From: Acidobacteriaceae bacterium
Lineage (GTDB): Bacteria; Acidobacteriota; Terriglobia; Terriglobales; Acidobacteriaceae
Assembly: GCA_025356095.1 (NCBI GenBank)
Contig: JANXUR010000081.1
Span: forward strand, 1-48,459
Reading direction: 5' to 3'
Length of the DNA stretch: 48,459 nucleotides
A program made the position numbers and the translations under genes. Positions 1,484 through 32,454 of this stretch are shown here, piece after piece (position 1 is the stretch's first letter; each line of letters opens with the position of its first letter). The notes beneath the pieces are model-generated. The model ran no database searches. It saw only the letters and a program-made list of their open reading frames with translations, and had not been told where the DNA came from.

Positions 1484-1755
1484 TCCGGCAAGCCGAGGGG
1501 CAAGCCGAGGATGGAGTGAAGGCGCTCTTCCCGGCCCTGCTCGATGAGGTCCCAGCGGGCATTCGGGTCGGCGGCACCCTTGTGAAGCCAGAGGCCATCT
1601 TCCTTCACCAGAGCCGGGGCCACGGCGACCGGCTTCAGCAGCAAGCCCTCGGGGCGCTCCACGAGCTCAAGCTCCGTACCCGGGCGCAGTCCCCAGCGCT
1701 CGCGCACGGGCTTGGGGAGTACGACGCGGCCGGCGCGATCAATCCTGAACGTCAT
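1480..1755 (-). CDS. vapB: VapB-like antitoxin with AbrB/MazE (SpoVT) fold
   Basis: A 91-residue protein with an N-terminal swapped-hairpin DNA-binding domain: TFRIDRAGRVVLPKPVRERW at residues 2-21, then GLRPGTELELVE. The acidic, amphipathic C-terminal tail (about residues 50-91, containing WDLIEQGREERLHSILG) is the part that normally occupies the toxin groove. It overlaps vapC by four bases. Two starts are possible: ATG 1755 (used here, giving the usual domain onset) and ATG 1779, which adds MVNGILNG. Neither has a recognisable ribosome binding site. The gene probably represses its own operon through the repeats at 1755-1790. Confidence 0.85.
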   Translation of the reverse strand: MTFRIDRAGRVVLPKPVRERWGLRPGTELELVERPEGLLLKPVAVAPALVKEDGLWLHKGAADPNARWDLIEQGREERLHSILGLPLGLPE

Positions 1756-1790
1756 ACCATTTAATATACCATTTACCATTTTACATGGTA
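1755..1790. promoter_or_regulatory. Putative vapBC operator: three TACCAT direct copies plus one inverted copy
   Basis: On the plus strand TACCAT occurs at 1755-1760, 1767-1772 and 1774-1779, and its inverse ATGGTA at 1785-1790, so 1774-1790 is an inverted repeat with a 5-base spacer. The cluster is AT-rich in a GC-rich setting and lies on the antitoxin start. Repeated short palindromic half-sites at this place are how AbrB-type antitoxins usually autoregulate. Binding is inferred. Confidence 0.55.
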
Positions 1791-1799
1791 GCAAGCCGT

Positions 1800-2240
1800 C
1801 TATCCCTCTCGTGTCCGGGGTGGAGGATAGTCCCGCGTGGCGTGCTTGGGCGAGGGGTGGAGAACTTTGGAGACGCGCCCTTCGGCTAAAAGGCGGCGAT
1901 GGGCTTCGGCCCAGGTGGGTTCGGCGGCAGACTCCTGCTGCCAGTGCAACACTGCGGCCTCGTCGCACCACTCCATCAACTTGGGCATCGCTGCCTAGTG
2001 CGCTCCGGCCAGCATGAACGCCCGCATGGCATCGGCGCTCTTCCAGACCGTGCGCGTCCAAAACACGTTGCCTTCTTCGCGCAGCAGTGAGAGCGCAACA
2101 TAACCCTTGGCAGCCTTCGCTTGTCGCGACGAGCCCATCGCGTACCAGAAGAAGGCGGGCAGTAGCCACCATCCCCGCAGCCGCAGCCGCGTGATGGAAA
2201 CAAAATAGCCTTCAGCAGGAGTGTGTGCTTGCGTCGCCAT
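1800..2240 (-). pseudogene. DUF3291/monooxygenase-like gene interrupted by an in-frame TAG
   Basis: From ATG 2240 the frame encodes 81 residues (MATQAHTPAEGYFVSITRLRL...AFMLAGAH), then TAG at 1995-1997, then continues in the same frame as AAMPKLMEWCDEAAVLHW... to a TAG at 1800-1802. Read through, it gives a 146-residue protein with the plan I recall for small antibiotic-biosynthesis-monooxygenase/DUF3291-like proteins. In those the segment GAH-[R/K]-x-AMPKL...WCDEAA is continuous, so one codon has become a stop (for example CAG or AAG to TAG). No frameshift or other damage is seen, which suggests a very recent nonsense mutation, a sequencing error, or suppression. Reinitiation at ATG 1988 could give a 62-residue fragment. 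vapBC follows on the same strand. Confidence 0.75.
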
Positions 2241-2410
2241 GGCTTGATGGTAGCAAAGCAACCCGCTGTGCCTGCCCGATACCACACCAGCATGGTTGCC
2301 TGCGCGGGTGCCACGCACCGGTGGCAGCTGCAGCCTTGAGGGATTCTTGCCCCTGTTCAGACTTCCTGCTTGTTTCCCTCAGGCCCAACAGGCTATGCTT
2401 TTGCCAACGC

Positions 2411-2438
2411 GCGTTTGCGAACACGCGTTTGCGAACAC
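2411..2438. repeat. Tandem 14-bp direct repeat (2 copies)
   Basis: GCGTTTGCGAACAC is repeated exactly twice without spacing, 16 bp before the deoxynucleoside kinase start. No function is evident; it could be a slippage product. Confidence 0.85.
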
Positions 2439-2454
2439 GCTTCCACAATCCCAC

Positions 2455-3102
2455 ATGGCCAAGCTTTTTGAACTGCCTCGATACATCGCGATTGAAGGTC
2501 CCATTCGGGTGGGCAAGTCCACCCTCGCGCGCGTGCTGGCCGAACGCATGAACGCCCAGCAGGTCACCGAGCCCGAGGATAATCCCTTCCTCGCCGGGTT
2601 TTATGCGGGCGAGCCGGGCGCAGCGTTTTCCACGCAGATGACCTTTTTAGCGCGGCGCTTTGAGCAGTTGATGGCGCTTAAAGTGGACCCCCATTCGCAC
2701 AAGGTGATCGTCGCCGACTACATCTTTGAAAAAGACAAGCTCTTTGCCTGCCTCAACCTCAGCGACGCCGAGCTAGACACCTACAACCGTTACTACGAAA
2801 ACTTCCGCAAGCAGGTGCCAGTGCCCGACCTGGTGATTTATCTGCAGGCTTCGCCCGACGTACTGAAAAAACGCCTGAAGAAAAAAAATGCTCCCGGCGA
2901 ACGTGCCCTGAGCGATGCCTATCTGGAGGAAGTCTCCAAGGCCTACGAACACTTCTTCTTCCACTATTCCGCGTCCGACCTGCTGATCGTCAACACCAGC
3001 GAAATTGACTTCGTCGAGCGCAATCAGGATCTGCAGGAATTGCTCAACAAAGTCAGCGAACCCATCCACGGCACTCAGTACTTCCTGCCGCTGGGCGGGT
3101 AA
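2455..3102 (+). CDS. Deoxynucleoside kinase family protein
   Basis: A 215-residue P-loop kinase. The Walker A is IEGPIRVGKSTLA (residues 13-25), with Arg where most homologues carry Gly. Family features further on are VADYIFEKDKLFA (in the place of the usual E/D-R-S segment), the dCK/dGK-like YLQASPDVLKKRLKKK (an arginine/lysine-rich lid), and a C-terminal YF.LPLG. Such enzymes phosphorylate deoxynucleosides for salvage in the cytoplasm. In some bacteria this type is fused to HPPK (FolK); here it stands alone. ATG 2455 is preferred because the conserved domain begins directly after it, although the frame is open further upstream. Substrate specificity (dA/dG versus dC) cannot be decided. Confidence 0.85.
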   Translation: MAKLFELPRYIAIEGPIRVGKSTLARVLAERMNAQQVTEPEDNPFLAGFYAGEPGAAFSTQMTFLARRFEQLMALKVDPHSHKVIVADYIFEKDKLFACLNLSDAELDTYNRYYENFRKQVPVPDLVIYLQASPDVLKKRLKKKNAPGERALSDAYLEEVSKAYEHFFFHYSASDLLIVNTSEIDFVERNQDLQELLNKVSEPIHGTQYFLPLGG

Positions 3103-3212
3103 GGGCGGATTTGCTGTTTAGCCTTTTGATACCCCAGAATATCTGCGGGCGGGCGTAGAAATGGTTGCAGCAGGATGACACCTTCTTGAGGCTCCTCACG
3201 CCTCGCCCCCGC

Positions 3213-3593
3213 CTACGCCCCCGGAATCTCCTCCAAGCTCCGGTAAATCTTCAACCCCAGGCTCTCCCCCACGCGCACCATCTCATCGGCACCAGCCGAG
3301 GGGCCGCCCACCCGCAGCACCGCGTCGCACTTTTGTTGCAAGCGCACTGCAATGGGATGGAAGATTTCATTGAACGCCTCGTCACCCAGTTGCCGTGAAC
3401 CTGCCAGCGCCACCAGAGGCAGAGCCAGCCACTCGCCCAGCAATGGAATGTGCCCCAGCCGAAAGATGGGCAGTGCGTAAGACTCCATCTCATGCAAGTT
3501 CTTGGCGATGAGCGCGGGGTCGTCATTGGTGCCCGAGCGGTAAGGCCCGGCAATCAGAATCATCATGGGAGATGGCTTGGCGGTGGTAGACAT
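3213..3593 (-). CDS. DUF4406 / nucleoside 2-deoxyribosyltransferase-like protein
   Basis: A 126-residue protein opening with MILIAGPYRSGTNDD, the N-terminal strand-loop of the nucleoside 2-deoxyribosyltransferase/DUF4406 fold. The C-terminal part CDAVLRVGGPSAGADEMVRVGESLG matches the region where those enzymes recognise a nucleotide-like ligand. A good ribosome binding site (GAGAGGA) precedes ATG 3593. It converges on the deoxynucleoside kinase gene, which fits a shared role in deoxynucleoside salvage, but this is contextual. The activity has not been shown for DUF4406 proteins in general, so the product should be treated as uncharacterised. Confidence 0.7.
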   Translation of the reverse strand: MSTTAKPSPMMILIAGPYRSGTNDDPALIAKNLHEMESYALPIFRLGHIPLLGEWLALPLVALAGSRQLGDEAFNEIFHPIAVRLQQKCDAVLRVGGPSAGADEMVRVGESLGLKIYRSLEEIPGA

Positions 3594-32054: not shown

Positions 32055-32214
32055 AGCGTCAGGCCGGGCTGAATTGGGCTGAGGCGCCTCCCGAGATTTT
32101 TTGGCAAAGGGTGTTTTGACCAAGGGGCAGCCCCGCCGGTTTGACTTAAGCCGCTTCAGCCTTCAAACTAAGAGTGGCAGGTAAGAATATTCACTTGATT
32201 TTTACTGCTAATCA

Positions 32215-32420
32215 CAACTTGCGGTGTGTGGCACTCCCAACCAGATCAGTTGGGGAGTGATTCGGGAAGCGGGTGAGAATCCCGCGCTGACGCGCAACTG
32301 TAAGCGAGGAAACAGGCTGTAGTCACTGGGCGACGAGCCCTGGGAAGGCTATGGCTGGAAGCGAACGCAGCTTCTGCGTTCTGACTCGCGAAGCCAGGAT
32401 ACCGACCGCGCACTGTGTGC
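32215..32420 (+). promoter_or_regulatory. Cobalamin (adenosylcobalamin) riboswitch
   Basis: The conserved elements are in order: GCGGGTGAGAATCCCGCGCTG, CGCGCAACTGTAAGCG, CACTGGG...CTGGGAAGGC, then the B12 box GAAGCCAGGATACCGACCG (about 32392-32410). It lies just upstream of the BtuB-like gene, whose ribosome binding site follows 32 bp after the box. High cobalamin should reduce expression. End points are approximate. Confidence 0.95.
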
Positions 32421-32454
32421 TTTTCACCTTCTTCGCGTCTAAGGAGGAAACTTG

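Follow-up and report, generated by a model that had tools for sequence, protein, structure and literature searches.

The window analysed here (the whole stretch of 48,459 nucleotides of an Acidobacteriaceae bacterium, contig JANXUR010000081.1) contains, on its minus strand, a monooxygenase-like reading frame that meets a TAG and then continues unchanged. Does this stop reflect a mutation of the gene, an error in the consensus sequence, or a codon that is in some way translated? We addressed this question by examining the frame and its family, then the same position in homologues, and finally the explanations that compete for the stop.

The interrupted frame and its family

The gene (1800..2240, minus strand) starts with an ATG at 2240-2238 and runs for 81 codons up to a TAG at 1995-1997, which is codon 82; 64 sense codons follow before a second TAG at 1800-1802. 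The first-pass annotation had reported a single in-frame TAG at 1995-1997 with 64 further open codons, and these coordinates are confirmed, on the minus strand. An open frame beyond a stop is by itself weak evidence, because in the window, whose DNA is 60% GC, 156 stops over the six frames are flanked on either side by 50 or more open codons; homology is the strong evidence. A scan of codon usage along the window did not single out the internal TAG: it is one of 25 window stops passing a loose filter, several of which are the ends of long ORFs lying before another long ORF. The scan for promoters and terminators gave no signal above chance.

Read through the stop, the frame scores 29.8 bits against PF11695 (DUF3291, cut-off 23.5) and 24.2 bits against PF03992 (ABM, cut-off 23.1). 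It thus belongs to the DUF3291 family, as had been proposed. Neither part reaches the PF11695 cut-off by itself: the pre-stop part alone scores 16.1 bits to ABM, below the cut-off, and nothing in Pfam matches the isolated post-stop part at E <= 1. Against models built from the homologues, with the window's copy excluded, the pre-stop half reaches 104.4 bits (E 1.8e-34, one-sequence search) and the post-stop half 106.6 bits (E 2.6e-35), bearing out the earlier statement that both sides of the stop are family-like.

The structure of the read-through protein was modelled from a 36-row alignment. The model (mean pLDDT 92.4, pTM 0.83) is that of a DUF3291/ABM-type alpha+beta protein. Foldseek returned 82 matches to it in the PDB at E <= 0.001, which points to an ABM-like dimeric alpha+beta fold; the solved ABM-type structures SnoaB, LsrG, IsdI and PG130 match with a probability of 1.00. 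A sequence search of the PDB with the protein gave a best E of 0.12. From Pfam and the model, the pre-stop part (81 codons, 1998..2240, minus strand) would carry strands 12-21, 47-55 and 59-66, helices 24-43 and 69-76 and the start of helix 79-91. The post-stop part (64 codons, 1803..1994, minus strand) would carry the remainder of this helix, strand 92-102 and the C-terminal helices. In the model, translation would therefore end after 81 residues, within helix 79-91 and before the fourth core strand, with loss of strand 92-102 and the C-terminal helices. Such a product would be unable to form the alpha+beta core and, lacking the fourth core strand, should not fold.

Codon 82 in homologues and the state of the frame beyond it

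Homologues were drawn from three sources: a search of 100 related genomes (match in 15, including the window's genome), a profile search of 398 family genomes (match in 56, including the window's genome, some being weak or partial) and a scan of a named genome collection (best 80 of 184 loci kept). The comparison set contains 126 loci, same-gene repeats included. Codon 82 is a sense codon in 123 of them, two have no match there (L013 and L015) and the last one is the window's own copy. Once this copy, the partial or weak matches and the identical proteins were removed (25 loci), 101 distinct full-length proteins remained. All 101 have a sense codon at this position (R 41, K 24, L 15, G 12, A 7, M 1 and V 1). 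The first-pass annotation had suggested looking for a sense codon in close relatives and considered that homologues ending at this position would refute its reading: none of the 101 ends there. Codon 82 is a variable position located between H81 and M85, both invariant in alignments of 9 and 36 rows. With a stop absent from the homologues and homology on both sides of it, the gene would, judging from sequence, be classed as a nonsense pseudogene.

The frame shows no decay beyond the stop. Where a column shows 90% conservation or more among homologues, the window's copy keeps the residue in 20/20 cases before the stop and in 18/18 beyond it. When the homologues are ranked by leave-one-out profile scores, the window's post-stop part falls at the 50th percentile and its pre-stop part at the 17th; the former is thus not the more decayed of the two. 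By the rule of three, the 38 conserved codons, with about 88 nonsynonymous sites, limit the change elapsed since the stop arose to about 0.034 per site, a bound which presumes that the whole gene has been neutral since then. With all conserved columns kept, the stop would be of very recent origin, erroneous, or tolerated; the lack of any sign of relaxed selection past it agrees equally with a very recent mutation, an error and continued use of the gene. It speaks against a recent mutation that in the gene tree the window's copy lies on a long branch (0.73 versus a median of 0.22), though the branches of L006, L009 and L088 are longer still and these loci have no internal stop. A second genome of the same genus was not found among the genomes searched (100 related and 398 family genomes). 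Eight of 46 loci, all eight being from the window's family, contain 200-base pieces identical to records that include Granulicella, Edaphobacter and an Acidobacteriaceae MAG, and the window would belong to the family of these genera.

Origin of the stop

We consider it probable that the TAG is a real and very recent nonsense mutation, which inactivated a dispensable DUF3291/ABM-like gene of patchy distribution; the remaining frame would still be gene-like, the time elapsed having been too short for it to decay. Such inactivation is commonplace among bacteria. In this reading we infer that the base is real, that function is lost and that the gene is dispensable. The genome gave no sign of a functional second copy: PF11695 has one match only at E <= 0.001, and the searches returned one DNA match and one protein match, both being the window itself. 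The gene is accessory, with a match in 56 of the 398 family genomes including the window's, and in the gene tree its members are scattered over phyla, with many unresolved forks. Other copies are also broken. In the profile search of the family genomes, matches spanning at least 130 of the 136 profile positions make up 46 rows. Two of them contain a single internal stop, TAG in both cases: they are the window's copy and that of G217, interrupted at different codons. The G217 homologue (L157, minus strand) has its TAG at 1606-1608 in a frame otherwise readable. L035 (match 3001-3405) is a homologue interrupted once, by a TAA located at matched codon 58 of 135, and in G030 and G053 the gene is in two pieces lying in different frames, which look frameshifted. 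Stops are also present in weak or partial matches (the second matches of G412 and G030, and those of G373, G419 and G319). Those of L046, near the match end, and of L065, before the likely start codon, were taken as natural boundaries. The stops of G217 (630 contigs, 87% complete, 5% contaminated) and L035 (a MAG) could be errors too, given the fragmentary assembly and the MAG origin. The presence in a minority of genomes, the scatter over phyla and the single lesions in several genomes fit a dispensable gene that moves horizontally.

The retention of every conserved site does not by itself favour this mutation, as a base error or a gene in use would explain it equally well. A consensus error, the gene being intact in the organism, is rather unlikely but deserves to be weighed: the assembly is a 120-contig draft, every conserved site is kept as in an intact gene, and no loss of function is required. 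Against it, the TAG is a lone substitution outside any homopolymer, the assembly is rated 100 complete and 0.01 contaminated, and the same gene carries different lesions in other genomes. As a control, ribosomal protein S9 was searched in the 398 family genomes (365 matched) and no internal stop appears among the matches listed; this control is suggestive only, as the matches are listed by score and a few weak ones (for example G138, G383 and G346) are not among them.

The alternative that the codon is used in some way appears improbable. Partial readthrough of the TAG, or a restart at the ATG located 6 bases further on (possible re-initiation ORF of 62 aa, 1800..1988, minus strand, from ORF reading and alignments), would give a low-level or two-piece product. 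It would agree with the post-stop half being without sign of decay, at the 50th percentile of leave-one-out scores, and with a study reporting that in-frame stops in genes with dN/dS below 1 are widespread in bacteria (PMC7918605). But this ATG codes for the Met invariant in the aligned family (M85), which accounts for its presence without any re-initiation, and a cut within a helix, as the model would place it, is a poor split site for a two-piece product. No CUA anticodon was found among the 43 tRNAs of the genome (42 tRNAs and one tRNA-Sec, whose anticodon is TCA), a set that is incomplete since tRNA-Ile, Ala-TGC, Leu-CAA and Ser-TGA were not called. None of the 101 homologues shares the stop, in contrast to the conserved stops of programmed readthrough, and the RNA past it folds no better than shuffled sequences (z -0.03), so a recoding hairpin was rejected. 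Altogether we obtained no positive evidence for readthrough or re-initiation. Still less probable is that the TAG is a newly gained attenuator, slight readthrough or restart keeping some full-length or two-piece DUF3291 protein under selection.

Conserved programmed recoding at codon 82, or a reassignment of TAG throughout the genome, is very improbable. Its only argument is the single in-frame TAG, and it is opposed by the variable sense codon in 101/101 homologues and by the tRNAs found, none of which is cognate. Moreover TAG is not avoided: among 38 window ORFs (non-overlapping, at least 150 codons, chosen mechanically) it is the commonest terminator, closing 20, while TAA and TGA close 9 each. 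This frequent use of TAG also speaks against readthrough. Genome-wide suppression is thus unlikely and genome-wide recoding was rejected, as was selenocysteine at the internal TAG, the tRNA-Sec of this genome having the anticodon TCA. Of the three origins named by the first-pass annotation (fresh nonsense mutation, base-call error or suppression), a young stop or an error holds up; suppression does not, with no CUA tRNA found and TAG a common terminator. The recent nonsense mutation is the reading that we retain.

Neighbourhood and comparison with known systems

Downstream of the gene, and outside the lesion, lie a vapB-like antitoxin gene (PF04014; 1480..1779) and a vapC-like PIN-domain gene (PF01850; 1046..1483), both on the minus strand. 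The Pfam matches show that the vapBC pair had been correctly recognised on the same strand. According to which ATG is taken, vapB starts 20 or 44 bases past the second TAG. A conserved pairing of DUF3291 with vapC was not found by tblastn of the window's vapC against the 125 homologue loci (E 1e-4), whose flanks extend over 1.5 or 3 kb at the most, and the kinase-like ORF 2296-3102 gave no match at E 1e-4 against the same loci.

Two short repeats were observed in this region. The 10-mer TTGCTACCAT is present at 1785-1794 and 2247-2256 (minus strand), closely flanking the DUF3291 gene. The 3.53 Mb genome has 9 occurrences of it, two of the 9 being these flanks, and 3 of the reversed pattern. 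Possible explanations are a shared VapB operator half-site and the trace of an insertion; the repeat was noticed after the fact and is possibly due to chance. ATACCATTTA is present twice around the vapB start, in identical copies 12 bases apart (window 1754-1775), and is possibly the operator of an AbrB/MazE-type antitoxin, a candidate function deduced from sequence. Further away, a cobalamin riboswitch (window 32212-32424, 90.7 bits) closely precedes a 769-aa ORF that begins at 32452 and looks like a putative TonB-dependent receptor. Elsewhere in the genome, the tRNA-Sec (anticodon TCA) is located at 317-413 of L171 (G000, contig C66).

An annotation of this locus should name a probable pseudogene, or follow a re-check, instead of listing two small proteins; beyond this the case has little wider weight. 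Several homologues have single lesions in otherwise readable frames, and this accessory gene could suit the observation of gene loss in the bacterial family. Judged by titles and the beginnings of abstracts, a literature search on pseudogenes and Acidobacteria gave nothing on this subject, and one on DUF3291 gave one database paper.

Compared with PF11695, the read-through frame passes the family cut-off and differs by the single TAG at codon 82. With PF03992 and the dimeric alpha+beta fold it shares a score of 24.2 bits and a predicted fold; the likeness to the solved ABM structures would reside in this predicted fold only, sequence identities being 7-21% over the 50 fold matches listed. With the in-frame stops under purifying selection described by Belinky et al. 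(2021, PMC7918605), the gene shares the conserved residues kept past the stop. It differs in that its stop is private to one copy and present in no relative, so that there is no relative in which to see selection acting on an already interrupted frame. The gene can also be compared with the young bacterial pseudogenes of Kuo and Ochman (2010, PMC2916853). Its youth is deduced from one genome, without close strains; the likeness lies in a newly disrupted gene, of a sort reported in that paper to be removed fast in Salmonella.
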